Source: an uncultured Dysosmobacter sp. (GTDB lineage Bacteria > Bacillota > Clostridia > Oscillospirales > Oscillospiraceae). From it: 64,000 bases of DNA. The DNA lies in assembly GCF_947631635.1 (NCBI RefSeq), contig NZ_CANRMB010000011.1, forward strand, positions 1-64,000, given 5' to 3'. How positions within the stretch are numbered: the stretch's first letter is position 1; every line of letters begins with the position of its first letter. The notes beneath the pieces are model-generated. The model had not been told where the DNA came from. It saw nothing but the letters and a program-made list of their open reading frames with translations, and did not search any database. This document shows positions 1,563-55,388 of this stretch, piece by piece. The translations under genes and the position numbers were made by a program.

Positions 1563-3347
1563 TCACGCCTCCTCCTTCTCCTTTTCCGTCACAGCAATGT
1601 GCAGTTCATCCAACTGCTTCTGCTCTACAAAAGAAGGCGCCCCCATCATCAGATCCTGTGCGTTCTTGTTCATGGGGAAGGGGATGATCTCCCGGATGGA
1701 GTCCTCGCCGGCCAGCAGCATCACCATTCGATCCACGCCCGGGGCGATACCGGCGTGCGGAGGCGCGCCGTAGCAGAAAGCGTTGTACATGGCGGGGAAC
1801 TTGGCCTTGACGTCGTCCTCGCCCAGCCGTACCAGATTGAACGCCTTAATCATGATCTCCGGGTCGTGATTCCGCACCGCGCCGGAGCTCAGCTCCACGC
1901 CGTTGCACACCAGATCGTACTGGAACGCGGTGATGGTCAGCGGATCAATCTCCCCGGCGATGGCCTTGTCCAGAATCTCCGCGCCGCCGTTAGGCATGGA
2001 GAAGGGGTTGTGGCAAAACTCCAGCTCACCGCTCTCCTCGCCGATCTCATACATGGGGAAGTCCACAATCCAGCAGAACTCGTAGCGCTCTTTGTCCATG
2101 TGATTGGGACACATGGTGCCTAGCTTGTTCCGCAGCACACCGGCGGTCTTCTGGGCCGCGCCCTTCTTCCCGGCGGTGAGTCCCACGAAGCAGTTGGGTT
2201 CCAGCCCCAGTTCAGAGACCACCCGATCCTTCACCGGCTGAATAAACTTGGCAATGCCGCCCACAATCTCGCCCTTCTCGTCCACGCGGAACCAGTAGGG
2301 CTTCTGCCCGGCCTGGACCTCCACATCGGCGCACAGCTTGTCGATCTGCTTGCGGGTGGCGGAGAAGCCGGAGACTACAATAGCCTTCACCACATTGCCC
2401 TCAAATGGCCCAAAGCCGATGCCGCCCAGCAGATCACTCACGTCCCGCACCACCAGATCGATGCGCAGATCCGGCTTATCGGAGCCGTAGGTCTCCATCG
2501 CCTCTGTAAAGCTAATTCGCTTGAAAGGCGCTGCGGAAGCTACATTGTAGGTGCCGAATTTGGCGAAAATGGGCGGCAGCACGTCCTCCAGAACGGCGAA
2601 CACATCATCCTGGGTAGCGAAGCTCATCTCCATGTCCAGCTGATAGAATTCGCCGGGGGAGCGGTCGCCCCGGGCGTCCTCGTCCCGGAAGCAGGGGGCG
2701 ATCTGGAAGTAGCGGTCAAAGCCGGAGGTCATCAGCAGCTGCTTGAACTGCTGGGGCGCCTGGGGCAGGGCGTAAAATTTGCCGGGGTGGTTTCGGGCGG
2801 GCACCAGATAGTCCCGGGCGCCCTCGGGGGAGGAGGCGGTCAGAATGGGCGTGGTGATCTCCAGGAAACCGTGCTCCGTCATGGCCTGCCGCAGGGCGGC
2901 CACCACCTGGCACCGCAGGACGATGTTGGCCTTGACAGCGGGATTCCGCAGGTCCAGATAGCGGTACTTCAGCCGCTGGGCCTCGTCGGCCTCCCGGCTG
3001 CGGTTGATCTGGAAGGGCAGCTCATTGTGCTGGCAGCGGCCCAGGACGGACACCTGCGCGGGGACGATCTCAATGTCGCCGGTGGCCATCTTGGCGGTCT
3101 TACTGTCCCGCTCCCGGACGGTGCCCTCCACGCTGATGGTGGATTCCTTGGTAATGGCCTTGAAGGTGTTCACCATCTCCTCGGTCTCCGCCACCACCTG
3201 GGTGGTGCCGTAGAAGTCCCGAACGACAATAAAGGCCAGGCTGGAGGAGACCTCCCGGATATTTTCCATCCAGCCCACGATCTTTACCTGCTTTCCAGCG
3301 TCGCTGAGCCGGAGTTCCCCGCAGGTATGGGTACGATTCTGCATCAT
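1563..3347 (-). CDS. aspS: Aspartyl-tRNA synthetase
   Basis: Charges tRNA-Asp with aspartate; cytoplasmic class II synthetase. The 594-residue length is usual for the bacterial type: N-terminal OB-fold anticodon domain (about 1-105), class II core, an inserted GAD domain (about 300-400), and core again. Motif 2 reads FRDEDARGDRSPGEFYQLD (near residue 215) and motif 3 GIAPGVDRMVML (near 533). The start is the first of two adjacent ATG codons, with AGGAG seven bases upstream. It is the last gene of the T-box-led hisS operon, separated from hisS by an inserted Mrr-type gene. Whether it is Asp-specific or also charges tRNA-Asn cannot be settled from this window. Confidence 0.97.
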   Translation of the reverse strand: MMQNRTHTCGELRLSDAGKQVKIVGWMENIREVSSSLAFIVVRDFYGTTQVVAETEEMVNTFKAITKESTISVEGTVRERDSKTAKMATGDIEIVPAQVSVLGRCQHNELPFQINRSREADEAQRLKYRYLDLRNPAVKANIVLRCQVVAALRQAMTEHGFLEITTPILTASSPEGARDYLVPARNHPGKFYALPQAPQQFKQLLMTSGFDRYFQIAPCFRDEDARGDRSPGEFYQLDMEMSFATQDDVFAVLEDVLPPIFAKFGTYNVASAAPFKRISFTEAMETYGSDKPDLRIDLVVRDVSDLLGGIGFGPFEGNVVKAIVVSGFSATRKQIDKLCADVEVQAGQKPYWFRVDEKGEIVGGIAKFIQPVKDRVVSELGLEPNCFVGLTAGKKGAAQKTAGVLRNKLGTMCPNHMDKERYEFCWIVDFPMYEIGEESGELEFCHNPFSMPNGGAEILDKAIAGEIDPLTITAFQYDLVCNGVELSSGAVRNHDPEIMIKAFNLVRLGEDDVKAKFPAMYNAFCYGAPPHAGIAPGVDRMVMLLAGEDSIREIIPFPMNKNAQDLMMGAPSFVEQKQLDELHIAVTEKEKEEA

Positions 3348-3397
3348 AAAATAACTCCTATTTGTATAATAAAATTGATTTATTGCGATTTGTATTT

Positions 3398-4309
3398 TTA
3401 TTCTTCCGCATCGTTGAAGAAATCAGAGTCAATGGTCTTGATTTCATATTTTGCGATGGGGGAGACGCCAAGATCATATTCGATCATTAGTCGGGTAAGC
3501 CGTTTTCCGTCTACCAGCACGATGTGCTGCCTTTCGGCAGAGGCGCGAGCGCCGTCTGAAAATTTTGCAGTGGTAATAAACAGCCCCTTTGACGCGCCTT
3601 CATCACGAAGCGCGCCGGAAAATTTTTGGATATCCGGGCGGCTGATCGACTTTTCAGGATCCCAGCGTTTGGCCTGAATGTAGATTTGGTCAAAGCCCAA
3701 TTTATCTTCCCGGATAATGCCGTCGATGCCGCCGTCATTGGATTGCTGCGTGACAAAACCAGAGTCAGAGGCCGAGCCGCCATATCCCATTTTTTGAAGG
3801 AGTTTGACAACCAACTGTTCAAAAAAAACGGGGTCTTTGGACATGATTTCTGCCATTAAGTCATCAGCCAGCTTTTGGTTGAGGGAAGAGAATGCGTGGT
3901 CGATCAAATCCTGAGGCGTTTCATCTGATTCGGTGGGGTTGGAAATTCGCTCGGAAGAGGAGGATTCTGTCAGATAAAAAGCTTGAAAAGAGGGATATTT
4001 GCAAAGAAAATTGTTGTCCAGAAGTGGGGGCGGATTTTGCAGGATTTGATATCCTTCGTCTGTCAGGCGATGATGACCGCGCCTTTCGCTTTCCACCAGT
4101 CCTGCCTTTTTCAGGTATGTGCAGGCCCAGTTTACCCGATTTGAGAAGACTGATACACCGCTTGTGAGTGTGAGTTGCTGCCGTTCTTGCTGTGTAATTC
4201 CAAGGCTTTCGGCAATTGTATCAGCCATCTCCCGGTTTGTATGAACTGCGCGATCCCCGAGGGCTCTCAACAGAGGAAGATACATTTCGTTGTATTTTGG
4301 AATTCCCAT
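3398..4309 (-). CDS. mrr: Mrr-type restriction endonuclease
   Basis: 303 residues with the two Mrr domains. The N-terminal winged-helix part (about 1-95) is DNA-binding. The C-terminal PD-(D/E)XK nuclease (about 150-285) shows E164 (FFEQLV), D196 (GGIDG) and Q212-A-K214 (IQAKRW), the expected catalytic set. Mrr family enzymes cut modified (often methylated) foreign DNA and act without a partner methylase, consistent with none being present here. RBS AAGAGG precedes the ATG. It lies in the same orientation between hisS and aspS (46 and 50 bp away), genes that are usually adjacent, and its base composition is visibly more A+T-rich than either neighbour, so it was probably inserted by transfer. 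It would be co-transcribed with hisS and read under the T-box. Confidence 0.9.
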   Translation of the reverse strand: MGIPKYNEMYLPLLRALGDRAVHTNREMADTIAESLGITQQERQQLTLTSGVSVFSNRVNWACTYLKKAGLVESERRGHHRLTDEGYQILQNPPPLLDNNFLCKYPSFQAFYLTESSSSERISNPTESDETPQDLIDHAFSSLNQKLADDLMAEIMSKDPVFFEQLVVKLLQKMGYGGSASDSGFVTQQSNDGGIDGIIREDKLGFDQIYIQAKRWDPEKSISRPDIQKFSGALRDEGASKGLFITTAKFSDGARASAERQHIVLVDGKRLTRLMIEYDLGVSPIAKYEIKTIDSDFFNDAEE

Positions 4310-45021: not shown

Positions 45022-45192
45022 GTGGAGAAAACAAGAGCAAATGAAGACCTGTGGCGCGTCTGGGTGGATACCCGGCGGCGGATCGTATCCTTCCATGAAG
45101 AGGAAGGCTGTCAGCTGCTGGAGTTCCGGAGCCGGGAATTGTTCCTGAGCTGCGTGGACCAGTACACAGGGATGCAGTACCGGTATCAATAA
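45022..45192 (+). CDS. Small protein (56 aa), paralogue of the one at 45752
   Basis: GTG start at 45022 with GAAAGGAG upstream; product begins MEKTRANEDLWRVWVDTRRR. From residue 10 onward about 32 of 47 residues are identical to the protein encoded at 45752 (shared LWR.WVDT..R..VSFHE.EG.QLLEF...F..C.D.YT...YRYQ), and most codon differences in shared residues are at third positions, which argues for real coding. No signal peptide or membrane segment; the pattern of alternating strands suggests a small beta-rich fold. Family not recognised. A bidirectional terminator follows, shared with the XRE gene on the other strand. Confidence 0.75.
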   Translation: MEKTRANEDLWRVWVDTRRRIVSFHEEEGCQLLEFRSRELFLSCVDQYTGMQYRYQ

Positions 45193-45196
45193 GTGG

Positions 45197-45227
45197 AAAA
45201 AGGACCGCCGTGGGCGGTCCTTTTTTT
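45197..45227. terminator. Bidirectional terminator between small gene 1 and XRE gene a
   Basis: Thirteen-base arms AAAAAGGACCGCC (45197-45209) and its complement (45213-45225) with a three-base loop; T run on the plus-strand exit. Confidence 0.85.
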
Positions 45228-45441
45228 ATCTGAGGTAGGGGGTGGGGTCATCGGTCAGGCCCAGCAGGTAGTCGATGCTGGTCTCGTAAAACCGGGCCAG
45301 GGCGATCAGCGCCGCGCTGGGGATGTCCAGCGTGCCGCTCTCATACCGGGAGTAGGTGGCCTGGGAGACGTGGAGCAGCTCCGCCAGCATCCGCTGGGGC
45401 AGGTCCTTGTCCTCCCGCAGGTCCCGCAGACGCTGATACAT
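45226..45441 (-). CDS. Small XRE-family regulator a
   Basis: 71 residues: a Cro/CI helix-turn-helix (RLRDLREDKDLPQRMLAELL, HVSQATYSRYESGTL) and the C-terminal RFYETSIDYLLGLTD typical of single-domain XRE repressors. ATG 45441 has GGAGCGG upstream. It lies between the two paralogous small genes, opposite in direction, and its own upstream region holds an array of hairpins, including one over the promoter of small gene 2. It very likely regulates those genes. It shares the ..FY..S.D.L. ending with the XRE proteins at 49465 and 54235. Confidence 0.88.
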   Translation of the reverse strand: MYQRLRDLREDKDLPQRMLAELLHVSQATYSRYESGTLDIPSAALIALARFYETSIDYLLGLTDDPTPYLR

Positions 45442-45486
45442 GGCCCACCGCTCCTTCCGTTCCCGATTCCGCTGTTATCATCAAAT

Positions 45487-45712
45487 CACTTGAAACGTGA
45501 TCAATTCACTTTTCAAGTGTCACAGCGCATGTGCGCTGTGACAGGCCGCGGACCGCGGTCTTGATTTGCATTTCATCGTCAATCGCTGTGCGCTTTGCGC
45601 ACAGCGGGCATCACCCGCTTGAAAAAACGCATGCGATTTTTCAAGTTCATTGACCATATTCTAGGATATGCAAAAAATGCATATTGCATTTTATGCGATA
45701 ATCGCATAAAAT
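45487..45712. repeat. Array of five hairpins upstream of small gene 2
   Basis: Five palindromes lie within 226 bp: CACTTGAAA with its complement (45487-45519, loop 15); GTCACAGCGCA with two-base loop (45519-45542); GCTGTGCGC-TTT-GCGCACAGC (45585-45605); a 28-bp near-perfect palindrome with arm CTTGAAAAA (45618-45645); and an 11-bp-arm palindrome with arm ATTTTATGCGA (45688-45712). Some could be operators, others RNA structures. No gene lies between 45442 and 45751. Confidence 0.75.
45684..45712 (+). promoter_or_regulatory. Promoter of small gene 2, overlapped by a palindromic operator
   Basis: TTGCAT (45684-45689), 17-base spacer, TAAAAT (45707-45712). The palindrome with arms ATTTTATGCGA / TCGCATAAAAT (45688-45712) covers the spacer and -10, so a bound repressor would block RNA polymerase. 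The divergent XRE regulator is the obvious candidate. Confidence 0.6.
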
Positions 45713-45751
45713 AGCAGAGAAAGGCAATCGGGCAGCGGGAGGTGAGCGGCA

Positions 45752-45919
45752 GTGGCCCAACGGAAACAGGAACCCCTTTGGCGCATTTGGGTGGATACGG
45801 AGCGGCGGGTGGTCTCCTTTCACGAGGTGGAGGGCGGACAGCTGCTGGAATTTTGCAGCTATGAGATGTTTCAGGCCTGCATCGACCGGTACACCGCCCA
45901 GCGGTACCGCTATCAGTGA
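45752..45919 (+). CDS. Small protein (55 aa), paralogue of the one at 45022
   Basis: GTG start at 45752 with GGGAGGTG eight bases upstream; product begins MAQRKQEPLWRIWVDTERR and ends AQRYRYQ. It shares about two thirds of residues with the protein at 45022 over 47 positions, with conserved Trp, Phe-His-Glu and one Cys. It has its own promoter/operator and is followed by the ileS T-box region. Unknown family. Translation of both copies with conserved protein but drifting third bases is the main coding evidence. Confidence 0.75.
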   Translation: MAQRKQEPLWRIWVDTERRVVSFHEVEGGQLLEFCSYEMFQACIDRYTAQRYRYQ

Positions 45920-49190: not shown

Positions 49191-49220
49191 AAGCCCGGAA
49201 GCATCAGCTTCCGGGCTTTT
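49191..49220. terminator. ileS terminator
   Basis: Twelve-base arms AAGCCCGGAAGC (49191-49202) and complement (49207-49218), loop ATCA, then T run. The stop codon of the opposite small gene lies in the loop. Confidence 0.9.
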
Positions 49221-49368
49221 CTCTGTAATACCGGCAGGCCGGGGCATTCCCCCGCCGGAGCTTCAGGCGGGGATAGACGCAGTGCCCGGACCCCACCGGG
49301 TTATACCGGAACCCGAATTTCACGTAATGCCGCCGAAAATGTACGCAGGTCTCGCAGTTTTTTTCCAT
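49204..49368 (-). CDS. Small Cys-containing protein (54 aa)
   Basis: Too short for most gene callers. ATG 49368 has GAGGTGA eight bases upstream. The product begins MEKNCETCVHFRRHYV and has CETC (5-8), GHCVYPR (C30) and APACRYY (C45), a spacing C-x2-C-x21-C-x14-C that could hold a metal. Basic overall. It is divergent from the XRE gene at 49465 with a dyad operator between, and its stop falls in the ileS terminator loop. I recall similar short Cys proteins in Oscillospiraceae but know no function. Confidence 0.65.
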   Translation of the reverse strand: MEKNCETCVHFRRHYVKFGFRYNPVGSGHCVYPRLKLRRGNAPACRYYREKPGS

Positions 49369-49391
49369 ACATGTATCACCTCAAAAGAAAT

Positions 49392-49413
49392 TTTACACCT
49401 GATAAGGTGTAAA
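49392..49413. promoter_or_regulatory. Dyad operator between the Cys protein and XRE gene b
   Basis: Perfect inverted repeat TTTACACCT - GATA - AGGTGTAAA in the 96-bp divergent region. Symmetric position suits control of both genes by the XRE protein. Confidence 0.75.
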
Positions 49414-49464
49414 GTCAATGTATCCAACAAGATTTAAAGCAGGATATTATTTGAGGTGATGTAG

Positions 49465-49659
49465 GTGAGCTATTATCCAAGATTACGAGATTTGCGGGAA
49501 GATGCGGATAAAACGCAAGACGAAATTGCAAAGCTATTGCAAACGACCCAACAGCAGTACTCCAAATACGAAAAGGGTGTCCAGGAGATCCCGGTCCACC
49601 ATTTGATTACACTTGCAGATTTTTATAAGGTGTCAGTTGATTACCTGCTTGGAAGATAA
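49465..49659 (+). CDS. Small XRE-family regulator b
   Basis: 64 residues from GTG 49465 (VSYYPRLRDLREDADKTQDEI), with GAGGTGATG upstream. A single helix-turn-helix domain (IAKLLQTTQQQYSKYEKGVQEIP) and the ending DFYKVSVDYLLGR. More A+T-rich than the surrounding genes. It is divergent from the small Cys protein, and is followed by a terminator and then a long non-coding inverted-repeat element. Probably represses itself and its partner through the dyad at 49392. Confidence 0.9.
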   Translation: MSYYPRLRDLREDADKTQDEIAKLLQTTQQQYSKYEKGVQEIPVHHLITLADFYKVSVDYLLGR

Positions 49660-49692
49660 GACCGGAGACGGATGTTCCCGGTCTTATTTTTT
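49656..49692 (+). terminator. Terminator of XRE gene b
   Basis: Ten-base arms ATAAGACCGG (49656-49665) and complement (49678-49687), 12-base loop, T run. Confidence 0.8.
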
Positions 49693-49711
49693 GTAAGTGC
49701 CCACTTACGGG

Positions 49712-50442
49712 GAATGAACCCCCATTTTCTTTTCGGTTGCGCCGAAAAGAAAACGGCCGTTCACGGTCAAAAGAAAAGGCGCTTTGGTGTCCACAGTTGG
49801 CCCCTAGGGCCAACTGTGGACGAGACGCGGGGTCCCAGAAAGAGACCGATGGAGGTCGAGGGCAGACTCTGCGTTGGGCGCGGGCACAGTCTTGCTGAAT
49901 CTTTCGGTTTTTAGCCACGCGAATGGGAATTGCGGGAACGGGCAAAGACTGCAAGGACCAGCGGCTTCTGTCGCTGCCGCTCTTTGATTCCTTGCGGAAG
50001 CGCCTGCGTGTGGGCCTTATACGGGACCAGACATTGTTGAAAGCCTTTCGATATCCACCCCAAATTTGTACCCATGCCCTCAAATGCGGGCACGCACTCC
50101 TACCCTCGTACTTAGTCCAGCGGCCCCGCCGGAGGCCAATTTGACCGCCCAGGTAGTGTGTAGCGAAGCGGAACACACGGGGCCAGCGGTAAAAGCCTTT
50201 CATCGACCACCCCAAATTTGCACCCAAGCCATCAACCTGCGGCGGCGCAGTTCTAAACCCGTACCCGGTTCGGCGCACCCGGCAGAAGATTTCCGGGACT
50301 TGGTGGCACATCTAACCACCACCTCCCGTCCGGCCAACTTTACCCCAAAGGGGCAAAGTTGGACACCCAAAAGCACTTTTCTTTTGGACCGTGCACGGCC
50401 CGTTTTCTTTTCCAGCCGGAAAAGAAAATGGGGGGTGCATTC
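49712..50442. mobile_element. Non-coding element with ~95-bp terminal inverted repeats, copy A (731 bp)
   Basis: The left end (49712-49805) begins GAATGAACCCCCATTTTC and the right end, read in reverse, begins GAATGCACCCCCCATTTTC; the two arms stay alignable for about 95 bases through AAAAGAAAACGG, CACGGTC, AAAAGAAAAG and GGTGTCC. The left arm also folds on itself (GTCCACAGTTGGCCC hairpin, 49789-49824). Between the arms lie two related units of about 140 bp that share AAAGCCTTTC and CCACCCC. No reading frame is conserved with copy B. Both copies sit directly after a small XRE gene. Confidence 0.8.
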
Positions 50443-50487
50443 TGCGGTGATGCACCGCATCCCCCACGGCAAAGCCGCCCGCAGCAG

Positions 50488-50516
50488 TTGCAATTCCCGC
50501 TCAAAGCGTGTAAACT
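50488..50516 (+). promoter_or_regulatory. lspA-rluD promoter
   Basis: TTGCAA (50488-50493), 17-base spacer, TAAACT (50511-50516), about 30 bases before the lspA start, just outside element A. Confidence 0.6.
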
Positions 50517-50549
50517 GGTCAGGAAATCGAAATTTGAGGAGAACCATTC

Positions 50550-51050
50550 ATGTTATATGCCATTTTTGCCGCCCTGGCCATGGCCCTGCTGGCGCTGGAC
50601 CAGTGGTTCAAGCACTGGATCACGGTAAACCTGCCGCTGGGGGAGACCATGGACTTTCTGCCCGGTTTTATGCAGCTGCGCACCGTCCATAACTACGGCG
50701 CCGCCTGGTCCAGCTTTTCCGGGATGCGGTGGCTGCTGCTGGGCGTCACCGGCTGCATCGTTCTGGCGGTGCTGTTCGTCCTGATCCGGCGGATCGTCCG
50801 CCATCCCGTGGGGCTTTGCGCCTGCTTCCTGATCCTCTCCGGCGGCCTGGGCAACATCATCGACCGGGCCCGCCTGGGATACGTGGTGGACATGTTCGAC
50901 TTCCAGTTCATGAATTACCCCGTATTCAACGTGGCGGATATCTGCGTGGTGTGCGGCTGCATCCTGGGGGCGGTGTATTACATCTTCCTCTACGAAAAAT
51001 ACGACAAAAAGGGAAAGAACGATGGAGATCCTGACGCTCCAACCGAATAA
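50550..51050 (+). CDS. lspA: Lipoprotein signal peptidase (signal peptidase II)
   Basis: 166 residues with four membrane helices. Catalytic region GGLGNIIDRARLGYVVDMFDF and FNVADICVV; Asp114 and Asp130 are the expected pair. Asn48 in HNYGAAWS is the conserved motif-II-type residue. It removes signal peptides of lipidated prolipoproteins such as the GH3 protein at the start of the window. Start ATG 50550 has GAGGAG. It overlaps rluD by 29 bases, a common lspA-rluD coupling. The last 15 residues are a hydrophilic tail (KYDKKGKNDGDPDAPTE). Confidence 0.95.
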   Translation: MLYAIFAALAMALLALDQWFKHWITVNLPLGETMDFLPGFMQLRTVHNYGAAWSSFSGMRWLLLGVTGCIVLAVLFVLIRRIVRHPVGLCACFLILSGGLGNIIDRARLGYVVDMFDFQFMNYPVFNVADICVVCGCILGAVYYIFLYEKYDKKGKNDGDPDAPTE

Positions 51051-51939
51051 GGAGGACGCAGGCGTCCGGGTGGACGCCTGGCTGGCCGCCCATCTGGAGG
51101 GCGTCACCCGCTCCGCCGCCCAGCGCCTGCTGGAGGAGGGGCGGATCACCTGCGCCGGAAAGGCCCTGGCGAAGAATTATAAGCTCACGGGGACCGAGAC
51201 CCTGGAGGCGGTCCTCCCGGACCCGGAGCCGGTGGACGTGGCTCCCCAGAACATCCCCCTGGACATCGTGTACGAGGACGGGGACGTGATCGTGGTGAAC
51301 AAGCCCAAGGGGCTGGTGGTCCATCCGGCCCCCGGCCACCCGGACGGCACCCTGGTGAACGCCCTGCTGTTCCACTGCGGCGACTCCCTCTCCGGCGTCG
51401 GCGGGGAGCTGCGGCCCGGCATCGTCCACCGCATCGACCGGGACACCTCCGGCCTCATCATCGCGGCGAAGAACGACTTTGCCCACCAGCACCTGGCGGC
51501 CCAATTGCAGGACCACACCCTGGCCCGCACCTATGAGTGCATCGTGGTGGGGAGCCTGCGGGAGGACGCCGGCACCGTGGACGCCCCCATCGGCCGCCAC
51601 CCGGCGGACCGGAAGAAGATGGCGGTGGTATCCAGCGGGCGGCCCGCCGTCACCCATTGGACCGTGCTGGCCCGCTATCCGGGCTTCACCCATGTCCAGT
51701 GCCGCCTGGAGACCGGGCGGACCCACCAGATCCGGGTCCACATGGCCCACATCGGCCATCCGATTTTGGGCGACACGGTCTATGGAAACAAAAAGCCCGT
51801 TCCGGGGCTGCAGGGCCAGTGCCTCCACGCCGTGGGCCTGCGGTTTGTCCACCCCCGCACCGGGGAACTGGTGGAGCTGCGCTGCGGCCTGCCGGAGGAG
51901 TTCCAGGCACAGCTTCAAAAGCTGTCGAACAGACGCTGA
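51022..51939 (+). CDS. rluD: RluA/RluD-family 23S rRNA pseudouridine synthase
   Basis: 305 residues: N-terminal S4 RNA-binding domain (about 13-60) and the synthase domain. The catalytic motif is HRIDRDTSG with Asp139; GRTHQIRVHMAHIGHP (near 232) is the second family motif. The likely targets are uridines of helix 69 in 23S rRNA, but Firmicutes carry several paralogues with different sites. It starts inside the lspA end and is followed by a strong terminator. Confidence 0.92.
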   Translation: MEILTLQPNKEDAGVRVDAWLAAHLEGVTRSAAQRLLEEGRITCAGKALAKNYKLTGTETLEAVLPDPEPVDVAPQNIPLDIVYEDGDVIVVNKPKGLVVHPAPGHPDGTLVNALLFHCGDSLSGVGGELRPGIVHRIDRDTSGLIIAAKNDFAHQHLAAQLQDHTLARTYECIVVGSLREDAGTVDAPIGRHPADRKKMAVVSSGRPAVTHWTVLARYPGFTHVQCRLETGRTHQIRVHMAHIGHPILGDTVYGNKKPVPGLQGQCLHAVGLRFVHPRTGELVELRCGLPEEFQAQLQKLSNRR

Positions 51940-51967
51940 AAGGGAGGGCTCCGGCCCTCCCTTTTTT
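51939..51967 (+). terminator. rluD terminator
   Basis: Eleven-base arms AAAGGGAGGGC (51939-51949) and complement (51954-51964), loop TCCG, T run. Confidence 0.9.
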
Positions 51968-52054
51968 GACAGCCCCTGAAGCGGAAACGTTTAAAATATG
52001 CAATATACACAGAAAGCAATCGATTACCTAACACAATTATGGCGATTTATATTG

Positions 52055-52083
52055 TTGACAGTGCTGGATGAGACTGCTAATAT
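52055..52083 (+). promoter_or_regulatory. Promoter of the HPr-like gene
   Basis: TTGACA (52055-52060), 17-base spacer, TAATAT (52078-52083). Confidence 0.75.
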
Positions 52084-52143
52084 GATGGCGATCCCGCGGG
52101 GAACGGGACCGCCGAAATTTTTGTGAATAAGGAGGAAACGGGC

Positions 52144-52365
52144 ATGGTTCGAGAGATCGATATCAAGAGCAAAGAGCAGGCGGAGAAGATCAACCAGCTG
52201 GCCTGCAGAGCGCCCTATGAGGTCTGGGTGAGCACCGACACCGTGATGCTGGACGCACGGTCTTTGCTGGGCCTGCTGGCACTGGTGGGCCAGAAAGCCC
52301 ATGTGGTTGCCGAGGATGATGTGAATCCCATTGCTTTCGGCAAGCTGGTTTCTAAAATGAAATAA
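52144..52365 (+). CDS. HPr-fold protein lacking the phosphorylated histidine
   Basis: 73 residues from ATG 52144 (MVREIDIKSKEQAEK), with AAGGAGG upstream. The helix phrase LDARSLLGLLALVGQKAHVVAED matches the HPr segment around regulatory Ser46 (NAKSIMGLLSL), with Ser40 at that place. The active-site segment GLHARP of a true HPr is absent: the corresponding stretch reads SKEQAE. It therefore cannot carry phosphate from enzyme I, and may be a Crh-like regulatory relative. Monocistronic, with its own promoter and terminator. Confidence 0.8.
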   Translation: MVREIDIKSKEQAEKINQLACRAPYEVWVSTDTVMLDARSLLGLLALVGQKAHVVAEDDVNPIAFGKLVSKMK

Positions 52366-52376
52366 GCGGATGACAG

Positions 52377-52415
52377 GGAGAGCGGCGCCATGTGGCGCCG
52401 CTCTCCGCTTTTTTA
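52377..52415 (+). terminator. Terminator of the HPr-like gene
   Basis: Thirteen-base arms GGAGAGCGGCGCC (52377-52389) and complement (52394-52406), loop ATGT, then GCTTTTTT. Confidence 0.9.
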
Positions 52416-52417
52416 TA

Positions 52418-52462
52418 TTGTGCTTTTTGTGGTTTTATGCTATGATACTTTAGTTAAAGTAT
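52418..52462 (+). promoter_or_regulatory. miaB promoter with adjoining palindrome
   Basis: TTGTGC (52418-52423), 17-base spacer, TATGAT (52441-52446). An 18-bp palindrome with arms ATACTTTA / TAAAGTAT (52445-52462) covers the end of the -10 and the start site and may be an operator. Confidence 0.55.
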
Positions 52463-52482
52463 CTATATTCGGAGGAACGATT

Positions 52483-53895
52483 TTGGAACGGAAAGACGTA
52501 TTGGTCCCGGAGGCGGATCTCACCCGCCAGCGGGACTTTGAGAAGAAGATCAGGGCCATGTTTGCGGCCCGGGAGGCCCATCCCGCGGCCTGCGTGGACA
52601 CCTTCGGGTGCCAGCAGAACGTGGCCGACGGCCAGAAGCTGATGGGGATGCTGCGGGACTGCGGCTTCACCTTCACGGAGGAGCCGAAGGAGGCGGACCT
52701 GGTGATCCTCAACACCTGCGCCGTCCGGGAGCACGCGGAGCAGCGGGTGTTCGGCAATCTGGGGGCCCTGACCCACACAAAAAAGGAAAACCCAGAGCAG
52801 GTCATCTGCCTCTGCGGCTGCATGGCCCAGGAGGAGCGGGTGAGCAGGCGGGTGAGGGAGTCCTACCGCCATGTGGACCTGGTGTTCGGCCCCCATGCCC
52901 TGTGGAAGTTCCCGGAGCTTTTGTGGCAGGTCTATGAGACCCGCAGACGGGTGTTCTCCGTGGACGACGAGCACGGCACCATTGCCGAGGGCATCCCCGT
53001 GGTGCGGGAGAAGGGCGTGAAGGCCTGGGTCTCCATCATGTACGGGTGCAACAACTTCTGCTCCTACTGCATCGTACCCTATGTCCGGGGCCGGGAGCGG
53101 AGCCGGGACCCCCAGTGCGTTTTGCAGGAGGTCCGGGAGCTGGTGGAGGCCGGGTACAAGGACATCACCCTGCTGGGGCAGAACGTCAACTCCTACGGCA
53201 ATGATCTGGACCTTGGATATGATTTCGCAGATCTGCTGGCGGAGATCGATGAGATCCCCGGCGAGTATCTGATCCGCTTCATGTCCAGCCATCCCAAGGA
53301 CGCCACAAAAAAACTCTTTGATACCATGGCCCGGTGCAGGCATGTTGCAAAGCAGCTGCACCTGCCCTTCCAGTCCGGCAACGACCGGGTGCTGCGGGAG
53401 ATGAACCGGCGGTACACCAGGGCGCAGTATCTGGACCTGGTGAACTACGCAAAGAGCGTCATGCCCGGCCTGGTGCTGACCAGCGACGTGATCATCGGGT
53501 TTCCCGGCGAGACGGAGGCGGAGGCCATGGACACCGTGTCCCTGGTGGAGGAGGTGGGGTTCGACGCCTTGTTCACCTTCATTTACTCCCCCCGGCCCGG
53601 CACAAAGGCGGCGGAGATGCCGGACCCTGCCTCCCGTCAGGAGAAGCAGAAGTGGTTCGACAAGCTGCTGGAGGTCCAGAACGGCATGTCCGCCAGGCTC
53701 CACGCCGGCTATATCGGAAAGACCGTGCGGGTGCTGGTGGACGGTGAGAGCGACGACCCGGCATATCCCCTGGCTTCTCGGACCGAGGGCAACCGCCTGG
53801 TGCGGCTGAAAGGGGAGAAGGATCTGATCGGACAGTTTATCGATGTGAGGATCACGGACAGCAATACCTGGGCGCTGTACGGCGAGCCGGTCTAA
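52483..53895 (+). CDS. miaB: tRNA-2-methylthio-N6-dimethylallyladenosine synthase
   Basis: 470 residues from TTG 52483 (ERKDVLVPEAD), chosen because GGAGGA lies six bases before it and the start site is downstream of other candidates. Radical-SAM methylthiotransferase: first [4Fe-4S] cysteines C43, C79 and C113; second cluster C189, C193, C196 in MYGCNNFCSYC; C-terminal TRAM domain (about 400-465). It adds a methylthio group to i6A37 that MiaA (encoded at 62864) makes. The C-terminal end overlaps a convergent small gene by four bases. Confidence 0.96.
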   Translation: MERKDVLVPEADLTRQRDFEKKIRAMFAAREAHPAACVDTFGCQQNVADGQKLMGMLRDCGFTFTEEPKEADLVILNTCAVREHAEQRVFGNLGALTHTKKENPEQVICLCGCMAQEERVSRRVRESYRHVDLVFGPHALWKFPELLWQVYETRRRVFSVDDEHGTIAEGIPVVREKGVKAWVSIMYGCNNFCSYCIVPYVRGRERSRDPQCVLQEVRELVEAGYKDITLLGQNVNSYGNDLDLGYDFADLLAEIDEIPGEYLIRFMSSHPKDATKKLFDTMARCRHVAKQLHLPFQSGNDRVLREMNRRYTRAQYLDLVNYAKSVMPGLVLTSDVIIGFPGETEAEAMDTVSLVEEVGFDALFTFIYSPRPGTKAAEMPDPASRQEKQKWFDKLLEVQNGMSARLHAGYIGKTVRVLVDGESDDPAYPLASRTEGNRLVRLKGEKDLIGQFIDVRITDSNTWALYGEPV

Positions 53896-54143
53896 CGGGC
53901 CATCCATTTGCCGAGGGCGAAGGTCTCTTGAAACAGGGCCATGGTCTCTAAGGCATACAGGCCTGCTTCCGCCAGGAGGAACTGTTCCAGCGCCGCCTGC
54001 TGTTCCGGCGAGAGCATGGTTTCAAGGGCCGATAATGCGGATTCCCGGCTGGCTGAAGCCCTGCGGTGTTCCGATGTGTGGAGGTGCCGGGGAACACAGT
54101 TCTCCTGCACATAGGTATATAGGCAGTCCCATAGATCATCCAT
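53892..54143 (-). CDS. Small acidic protein (83 aa), DUF6809-like
   Basis: ATG 54143 (MDDLWDCLYTYVQEN) has AGGAGA upstream. Mostly helical, negatively charged, ending ETMALFQETFALGKWMAR, which resembles the C-terminal ...F..GF.LG..L pattern of small Oscillospiraceae proteins annotated DUF6809; this is from memory and unsure. It is divergent from the XRE gene at 54235, with a nested dyad in between, the same layout as the pair at 49204/49465. Its stop overlaps the miaB stop by four bases. Confidence 0.7.
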   Translation of the reverse strand: MDDLWDCLYTYVQENCVPRHLHTSEHRRASASRESALSALETMLSPEQQAALEQFLLAEAGLYALETMALFQETFALGKWMAR

Positions 54144-54170
54144 AAATGATTCTCCTAAAAAAGAATTGAA

Positions 54171-54214
54171 AAGCACATTTGGGTATGATTATAATAACAT
54201 ACCCGTTTGTGCTT
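54171..54214. promoter_or_regulatory. Nested dyad operator between the small gene and XRE gene c
   Basis: Outer half-sites AAGCACA (54171-54177) and TGTGCTT (54208-54214) and inner half-sites GGGTATG (54181-54187) and CATACCC (54198-54204) share one centre at 54192.5. The 10-base A+T core between the inner half-sites may include a -10 box. Confidence 0.75.
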
Positions 54215-54234
54215 GTCAATAGAAAAGAGGCCAC

Positions 54235-54441
54235 ATGGAATTTCATGAAAAACTACTTAGTCTGCGCCAGAAAAGGGGACTGACACAGCCGCAGGTCGCA
54301 GATGGCACCGGACTTAGTTTGCGTGGCTATCAAAATTACGAGCGGGGCTTGCGGGAACCGCAGCTGACTGCTCTGGTTGCCCTGGCGGACTTTTACGATA
54401 TTTCTCTGGACGAGCTCGTCTGCCGGGAGCGGCAGCGCTGA
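54235..54441 (+). CDS. Small XRE-family regulator c
   Basis: 68 residues, one helix-turn-helix (RQKRGLTQPQVADGTGLSLR, GYQNYERGLREP) and the ending DFYDISLDELVCRERQR. ATG 54235; the ribosome site AAAGAGG is weak. Divergent from the 83-aa gene. Immediately followed by a short hairpin (54442-54458) and then inverted-repeat element B. Related in ending to the XRE proteins at 45226 and 49465 but clearly distinct in its HTH. Confidence 0.88.
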   Translation: MEFHEKLLSLRQKRGLTQPQVADGTGLSLRGYQNYERGLREPQLTALVALADFYDISLDELVCRERQR

Positions 54442-54459
54442 CTGCGGACTTTCCGCAGG

Positions 54460-55228
54460 GAATGAACCCCCATTTTCTTTTCGGTTGCGCCGAAAAGAAA
54501 ACGGCCGTTCACGGTCAAAAGAAAAGGCGCTTTGGTGTCCACAGTTGGCCCCAACGGGCCAACTGTGGACGAGACGTGGGGTCCCAGAAAGAGACCGATG
54601 GAGGTCGAAACTGGATTCAGCGTTGGGCGCGGGCATGGTTTTGCTGAATCTTTTGGCTTTTAGCCACGCGAATGGGAATTGCGGGGGCGGGCAAAGACTG
54701 AAAGGACCAGCTTCTCTTTCCGCGCTCCGCGCTTCGCTTAGCGCTACCTGGGCAGTTGCGGCAGTGTGTTTTGGAGCCTGTTCCTCGACAGGGGACCAGG
54801 TAGTGTGTAGCGAAGCGGAACACACGGGGCCAGCGGTGAAAGCCTTTCATCGACCACCCCGAATCCGCACCCAAGCCATCAACCTGCGGCGGCGCAGTTC
54901 TAAAACCGTACCCAGTCCGGCGCGCATTTAACTGCCCAGGTAGTGTGTAGCGAAGCGGAACACACGGGGCTTGTTGCTGAAAGCCTTTCGCTGACCACCC
55001 CGAATCCGCACCCACGCCCCCAAATGCGGGCACGCACTCCTACTTTCGTACCCGGTATAGCGCACCCAGCAGAAGATTCCCGGGACTTAGTGGCACATCT
55101 AACCACCAACTCCCGTCCGTCCAACTTTACCCCAGAGGGGCAAAGTTGGACACCCCAAAGCGTTTTTCTTTTGGACCGTGCACGGCCCGTTTTCTTTGGC
55201 GCAACCAAAGAAAATGGGGGGTGCATTC
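54460..55228. mobile_element. Non-coding element with ~95-bp terminal inverted repeats, copy B (769 bp)
   Basis: Left end starts GAATGAACCCCCATTTTC at 54460, the same as copy A over about 150 bases; the right end in reverse begins GAATGCACCCCCCATTTTC. Inside, the phrase AGGTAGTGTGTAGCGAAGCG occurs twice (near 54798 and 54940) and heads two units of about 142 bp; copy A has the phrase once. No protein is conserved between the copies. The 160 bases after it, up to mutS, are further GC-rich stems. Function unknown; a MITE-like or structured-RNA element are the options. Confidence 0.8.
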
Positions 55229-55388
55229 CCGCACGGCAAAGCCGTGCACCCCCCGTCCCCGGCCCGTGGCCGGACAAGTCCCCGCCCCATGGGCGAAAGC
55301 TCTCGTCCCGCGCCCGCGGCGCGAAACCCTCCGCTCCAAAATATTTTTAACAGCTTGATAGTAGATAGAAAGATAACGAGGTGAGTTC

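Follow-up and report, generated by a model that had tools for sequence, protein, structure and literature searches.

Long hairpin-ended repeats and small XRE regulator pairs at shared core-gene junctions in Dysosmobacter

Introduction

Repetitive extragenic palindromic (REP) sequences, bacterial interspersed mosaic elements (BIMEs) and REPINs of Pseudomonas and enterobacteria are, in the cited parts of two reports, extragenic hairpins that form inverted pairs and occur in many copies, often downstream of coding regions (PMC3116915, PMC3733652). The same parts give a length of 71 or 110 bp for REPIN doublets (PMC3116915) and report the REP hairpin to be tagged with GTAG or CGTC on one of its ends (PMC3733652). 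STAR elements of Staphylococcus are described, in the sections cited here, as direct repeats whose loci vary between species and whose spacers are locus-specific, with no sign of gene conversion (PMC3532100). Here, we describe a repeat family met in a 64,000-nucleotide stretch of an uncultured Dysosmobacter sp. (assembly GCF_947631635.1, contig NZ_CANRMB010000011.1, positions 1 to 64,000; the window), where two long, hairpin-ended elements each stand behind a small XRE-family regulator gene and its divergent partner. A literature search of limited scope found no publication on this repeat family or on DUF6809.

Results

The repeat shows a strong preference for the 3' flank of small regulator pairs. 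We observed three arrangements: (i) a pair of inverted arms behind the regulator, (ii) arms that bracket the regulator pair, and (iii) a solo arm. Our best reading, to which we give an even chance, is that a REP/BIME-like family of long palindromic repeats shares a slot with a separable pair consisting of an XRE or ribbon-helix-helix (RHH) regulator and a DUF6809-like protein. In what follows, C denotes a contig of the window's own genome (with the position after a colon), G the genome of a relative, and L a fetched locus.

A preliminary description of the window had proposed two modules with the order small gene, dyad, divergent XRE gene and element, and we found both. Module 1 lies between ileS and lspA. 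Its small gene (49204..49368, minus strand) encodes a Cys-rich protein of 54 aa, the partner of XRE 1, and XRE gene 1 (49465..49659, plus strand) encodes 64 aa with a match to HTH_3 (E 5.6e-14). Between the two divergent starts lies a dyad (49392..49413), a putative XRE operator that is perfect over 9 bp (49392-49400/49405-49413) and overlaps a minus-strand promoter-like site. The element starts 50 bp after the XRE stop codon (49710..50444, plus strand) and holds no recognisable gene; its inverted arms of ~120 bp (76% over 127 aligned columns) are built of hairpins, with more, variable hairpins outside. The outer conserved hairpins of its left (49710..49768, plus strand) and right arm (50387..50444, minus strand) scored 74.0 and 74.3 bits with model R1, whose own alignment includes both arms.

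Module 2, between miaB and mutS, repeats this layout. The small gene (53892..54143, minus strand) encodes a DUF6809-like protein (PF20648, E 2e-4, under the cut-off) of 83 aa when read from the ATG at 54143; an upstream GTG start would make 94 aa. A long dyad with divergent promoter-like sites, again a putative XRE operator (54165..54220; halves 54165-54187/54198-54220, 83% complementary), separates it from XRE gene 2 (54235..54441, plus strand; 68 aa, HTH_3 E 3.5e-14), which has orthologues upstream of mutS in other species. Element copy 2 follows 16 bp after the stop codon (54458..55230, plus strand) and is quasi-palindromic, self-complementary at ~60% along its full length, with outer conserved hairpins at 54458..54516 (plus strand, 74.0 bits with R1) and 55174..55230 (minus strand, 76.0 bits). 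The names ileS, lspA, miaB and mutS come from recognition of the sequences with no family search, and their relatives were traced by tblastn. The claimed homology of the two elements holds (78%), and their bounds fall at about the places first described; the inverted ends are ~120 bp rather than ~95 bp, and the outer hairpins of the model end at 50444 and 55230.

Both window XREs are single-domain HTH_3 proteins (HTH, helix-turn-helix), for which the nearest NCBIfam entry, RstR, was under its cut-off. Small gene 1 had no Pfam, NCBIfam or PHROGs match at E up to 0.1. With a custom profile, the divergent small gene was DUF6809-like in nine modules of the own genome, seven of which had seeded the profile; after iteration, it picked up 22 different proteins at loci from relatives. 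Pfam responds more weakly: of 10 such proteins, 5 reach E 0.05 or better against DUF6809, and 2 exceed the cut-off. None of the partner proteins submitted matched a toxin family in Pfam, NCBIfam or PHROGs. Each XRE/small-gene pair is probably self-regulated through the dyad between the two genes. At the ruvB-glmM junction of G061 (L173, 498-1474), three tandem XRE genes, 66-78% alike, lie beside one element, each with a different dyad as read by eye, and these look like a duplication with changed DNA specificity. Because the dyads differ in this tandem and also between the two window modules, the sequences suggest that such pairs avoid cross-talk.

We then counted regulators beside all copies. 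Merged sequence matches gave 18 element copies in the own genome (3.34 Mb, 59 contigs), and a small DNA-binding gene adjoins 14 of them. Twelve are HTH genes, on C11 (two), C1 (three), C7, C17, C19, C24, C41 (two) and C47, and two are RHH genes, on C39 and C12; the C12 gene is just under its Pfam cut-offs, and the C19 gene is under that of HTH_3 but over that of HTH_31. Twelve regulators read into the element from 14-200 bp away, eight facing the left arm and four the right, and two read away (C1:308899, C12:11799). No regulator was found at C34 (two copies), C12:22807 or C20 with the HTH_3 search and the list of open reading frames (ORFs), RHH genes having been searched systematically nowhere. 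An over-cut-off HTH_3 gene lies within 400 bp of 11 of the 18 copies (one reading away) versus 0.49 expected, under a binomial with uniform placement of 95 such genes and no matching for intergenic sites. The preliminary description had judged a chance recurrence of the order unlikely, with which these figures agree. It had also held that copies beside random genes, with no excess of XRE genes, would count against a module; within the genus we found the reverse.

Relatives gave graded results. In the complete genome G061 (90 HTH_3 genes), 5/5 paired elements have an HTH_3 gene, a number reached by 0 of 200,000 random placements; its solo arms, which were outside this placement test, have an XRE reading in at 1/5. 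Over 56 arm loci of three relatives, an XRE reads in at 15 (G061 6/10, G013 6/25, G018 3/21), away at 2 and lies inside at 1. Coverage was complete for the arms found in G061 and G013 and reached 20 of about 35 places in G018; the missing end of a solo arm was assumed to lie 700 bp off. The XRE matches at L194 and L216 are weak, the latter unlike the other XREs, and the XRE at L193 reads in by eye while falling outside the counting rule. The enrichment was not seen beyond the genus: at 28 loci of other genera, whose XRE density was not measured, an XRE reads in at one and away at one (two G132 contig-end matches were left out). The model found no arm at 20 own loci with a DUF6809 match or a small XRE, chosen away from known copies, which shows only that none was missed there.

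Such numbers could also arise by coincidence, if accessory pairs and repeats both gathered in a few insertion-tolerant core junctions with no functional tie. We regard this as unlikely. Both indeed lie between core genes, each is seen without the other, repeats of other genera are nearly free of XREs, and our expectations assume uniform placement and would rise for insertion-tolerant junctions. Yet regulators read in rather than away by 12 to 2 in the own genome and by 15 to 2 in the three relatives, and the own distances are short. Moreover, the 3' side of the small gene, a convergent site that should be equally open, carries no arm in the own genome, although arms occur there in L148, L208 and L219.

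The element copies have inverted, hairpin-built ends, one of which is worn in C34:31525 and C1:305258. Inverted pairs with no enclosed genes measure about 540-1190 bp. Self-complementarity over the full length reaches ~60-62% in 4 of the 18 own copies (C11:54458, C7, C39, C19) and is stronger in relatives, for example 69% over the 946-bp copy of L085. Gaps misled the consensus folding of a first arm alignment, and the outer-hairpin covariance model was built instead from a second one (37 arms from the own genome and relatives) for which the structure was given explicitly; this model has 34 matches in the own genome. The 37 aligned arms start with GGGAATG or variants. In the outer hairpin, 96.7% of cells are paired and 12 of 20 pairs are changed on both sides, a fit favoured by the fact that the structure was derived from the sequences that were scored. 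Among 500 shuffles, none matched the paired share and none the covariation score; 25 matched the count of additional pair types, and control structures slid along the alignment had a paired share of at most 60.6%. The double changes show that a hairpin is maintained, but they do not make it an RNA, since repair of palindromes in DNA could have the same effect. Of the whole element, the terminal hairpin alone is retained; interiors diverge between distant species.

The suggestion in the preliminary description that the element is a regulated RNA fared poorly, and we think it very improbable that a large structured RNA under XRE control explains the elements. Apart from the covarying terminal hairpins, it could draw on the folding of the whole element (z -7.5, 20 shuffles); the interior of copy 1 folds at z = +0.67, so the excess comes from the ends. 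Further, the orientation of the element relative to the XRE is mixed, as counted above, and the interior is unlike between distant species. Rfam gave no match at gathering score for the whole window (4227 families) and, below that score, two matches at chance level in 49400-50560.

Two side observations concern the build and place of the repeats. GC-rich hairpin repeats, of the GTAGGGGCGG...CCGCCC type and others, crowd within elements or behind XRE genes (L142, L144, L151). In G018, an element (L218, 1508-2088) apparently lies within an acyltransferase-like gene before lspA, as read by eye, so that insertion into coding DNA may occur.

Elements or arms of the three relatives stand beside matching flanking genes for 12 of the 18 own copies. 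L218 proved to be a different site, leaving 11 shared places, 8 matched on both flanks and 3 (C20, C34:31525, C39) on one. By interior BLAST score, own copies averaged 317 bits among themselves versus 0-67 bits at 13 matched places in other species, and in 2 of the 13 no other copy of that species scored above the matched one (C11:54458 with L176, C39 with L219). In contrast, when the XREs were compared, five of six shared junctions had their best match where the junction recurs in another species: C24, C47 and miaB-mutS in four species, and C1:305 and C41:8695 in two, the last by a narrow 93 versus 91 bits; C7 fails. In these sequence comparisons, the XREs mostly follow the junction, as in ordinary descent, whereas the elements resemble their own genome or lineage more.

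The junction upstream of mutS was read at 30 loci (36 genomes had a match); 15 of them have an XRE within reach, 11 have arms and 10 have both. Loci with neither comprise six with a miaB-mutS gap of 29-101 bp, five with 847-930 bp and three that do not reach miaB. Five loci have an XRE and no arm in the stretch; two of these, in G029 and G034, were read further, and by eye the gene behind the XRE resembles a metallo-beta-lactamase fold. G024 and G061 share near-identical small-gene and XRE DNA with different elements (by eye). The only arm found in G022 and G020 turns its inner face to the XRE, and in G006 (L148) the small gene and XRE lie between two arms. The rplI-dnaB junction holds all three parts (small gene, XRE, element) in the own genome, whereas in G013 and G018 an element comes within about 30 and 100 bp of rplI and no XRE was found. 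A pair without an element and an element without a pair thus occur at comparable junctions, which makes the two separable. As a general rule, a fixed transposable unit of pair plus element was therefore ruled out, both by the XRE-less elements at rplI-dnaB and by the regulators for which no arm turned up, upstream of mutS in G029 and G034, as well as by the repeats of other genera.

Three elements of G018 enclose genes: a small gene and an XRE in L208, a small gene and an RHH gene in L219, and other ORFs in L215. The last is a 1.88-kb element (1564-3445) whose ORFs between the arms look membrane-like by eye. The RHH pair of L219 resembles that of C39:2273, which lies outside its element, and the far-side flanking gene is common to both. 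Hence, the earlier idea that the pair is a regulated cargo of the element finds some support in L208, L219 and L148, while its fixed form is contradicted.

A related possibility is a mobile cassette that is bounded by the arms and has a regulator pair as cargo, the 0.5-1.2 kb elements being empty cassettes and the adjoining pairs former or rearranged cargo. The bracketed pairs, the other ORFs of L215 and the likeness of the L219 and C39:2273 pairs would fit, as would the ileS-lspA junction, where by eye the stretch from the ileS terminator to the lspA promoter holds no such block in G013 and G062, and the small gene, XRE and element of the own genome are all extra. We nevertheless find this doubtful: XREs mostly follow the junction and elements do not, most pairs lie outside the arms, and XRE-less elements occur at the same junction. 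No recombinase was found beside the elements, Y1 transposase being the only one searched for.

Further signs of mobility were sparse. The longest interior ORFs of 10 elements from relatives included no transposase recognised by eye, and no target-site duplication was found, the variable outer hairpins blurring the element edges. Mobilisation by the genome's own RAYT-like gene (RAYT, REP-associated tyrosine transposase) was ruled out, as no arm adjoins it. This 185-aa Y1 gene (L171, own C22, 2456-3013) is flanked by two genes that look topoisomerase-like by eye, and its reading frame itself holds GTAGGGG-type hairpin sequences. Carriage by phage was rejected as well, since exact element patterns matched 0 and 1 contig in viral_contigs, the one being L172.

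Searched at the DNA level, the element had matches in 24 of the 36 other genomes of its genus; the 23 genomes from other families of the order gave none. At E 1e-6 with strict filters, the covariance model matched 6 of 150 genomes of the family (own included), in 5 of 106 genera. An exact element end occurs in 15 named stretches, from records titled Dysosmobacter, Oscillibacter, Oscillospiraceae bacterium and Clostridia bacterium.

Elsewhere in the window, two paralogous ORFs of 55-56 aa (LWRIWVDTERRVVSFHE type; 45022-45919) flank an XRE gene (45226-45441, minus strand) with no element nearby. Between the modules, 52123-52362 encodes a protein of 80 aa that is weakly HPr-like (E 0.039, under the cut-off).

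Discussion

We propose a slot between core genes with two parts: (i) a small divergent XRE, sometimes RHH, repressor with a small, usually DUF6809-like protein, which is mostly inherited vertically and probably regulates itself through the dyad; and (ii) a repeat unit consisting of a hairpin-ended arm, usually as an inverted pair of 0.5-1.2 kb. Covariation shows the outer hairpin to be maintained across the genus, while the remainder changes fast and stays alike within a genome or lineage. Such likeness may come about by gene conversion or by repeated re-insertion through a hairpin-recognising enzyme acting in trans. Arms settle and persist in strong excess 3' of the regulator, either as a pair behind it or as a bracket around the small-gene/regulator pair. 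The likeliest reason for this preference would be that the 3' side can be dispensed with and that a block rich in hairpins may shield the next core gene from repressor transcription; such shielding would keep pairs and repeats together.

Several results weigh against this proposal. Elements of G061 and G018 averaged 310 bits between the two genomes versus 345 (G061) and 311 (G018) within them, and since likeness between genomes is about that within, it is at least partly one of lineage rather than of each genome. The single junction compared for these two (L175 with L220) was not a best match, and the shared places could be hot spots hit independently. The near-absence of XREs from the 28 loci of other genera, together with the low shares in G018 and G013, means that the preference does not belong to the repeat as such. 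With regard to shielding, a terminator scan lists no terminator-like site inside either window element. Finally, the 5 kb around the only Y1_Tnp match of the genome (C22:52488) gave no significant match to an arm or an element.

Interspersed bacterial repeats change position, which makes them hard to trace from species to species; in this family, a comparison junction by junction is feasible. With a coding neighbour that mostly passes by descent beside a repeat that matches its own genome or lineage, the persistence of a repeat, by conversion versus re-insertion, becomes directly testable. The association also ties such repeats to small repressor pairs in common gut bacteria. In a more speculative extension, which we consider improbable, the arms would be sites recognised by their structure in a cassette system by which small self-regulated pairs are captured, bracketed and reshuffled at recurring core junctions, with an enzyme in trans keeping the arms alike in each lineage. 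Integron gene cassettes, in which variable genes stand beside a structured site, offer a resemblance.

Among known systems, small XRE/RHH regulator pairs, including those of toxin-antitoxin type, share with our modules a small DNA-binding gene, a small partner and a dyad. In type II toxin-antitoxin systems, regulator and partner typically form one co-directional operon. Unlike these, both window pairs are divergent. Their partners are DUF6809-like or of no family found, and those submitted to Pfam, NCBIfam and PHROGs matched no toxin family. Miniature inverted-repeat transposable elements (MITEs) and fold-back elements resemble our window copies, which are non-coding and have terminal inverted repeats and modular interiors; three G018 elements enclose genes. 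In contrast to MITEs, junctions recur over species here and copies are alike by lineage; neither a parent transposon, in the by-eye reading of interior ORFs, nor a target duplication, at the blurred element edges, was found. STAR elements, as far as the cited sections describe them, are likewise intergenic interspersed repeats compared over species, but their pattern is opposite to ours, as our elements share junctions and match their own lineage (PMC3532100). The REP/BIME/REPIN class is similar in that our family consists of inverted doublets of extragenic hairpins in multiple copies (18 in this genome). Relative to the REPINs of the parts cited above, our pairs are far longer, at hundreds of bp over which they are palindromic, no GTAG or CGTC tag of the kind given there for REP was seen in the 37 aligned arms, and arms do not flank the Y1 transposase of the genome. 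Unlike REP, BIME and REPIN sequences, our repeats adjoin repressor genes.

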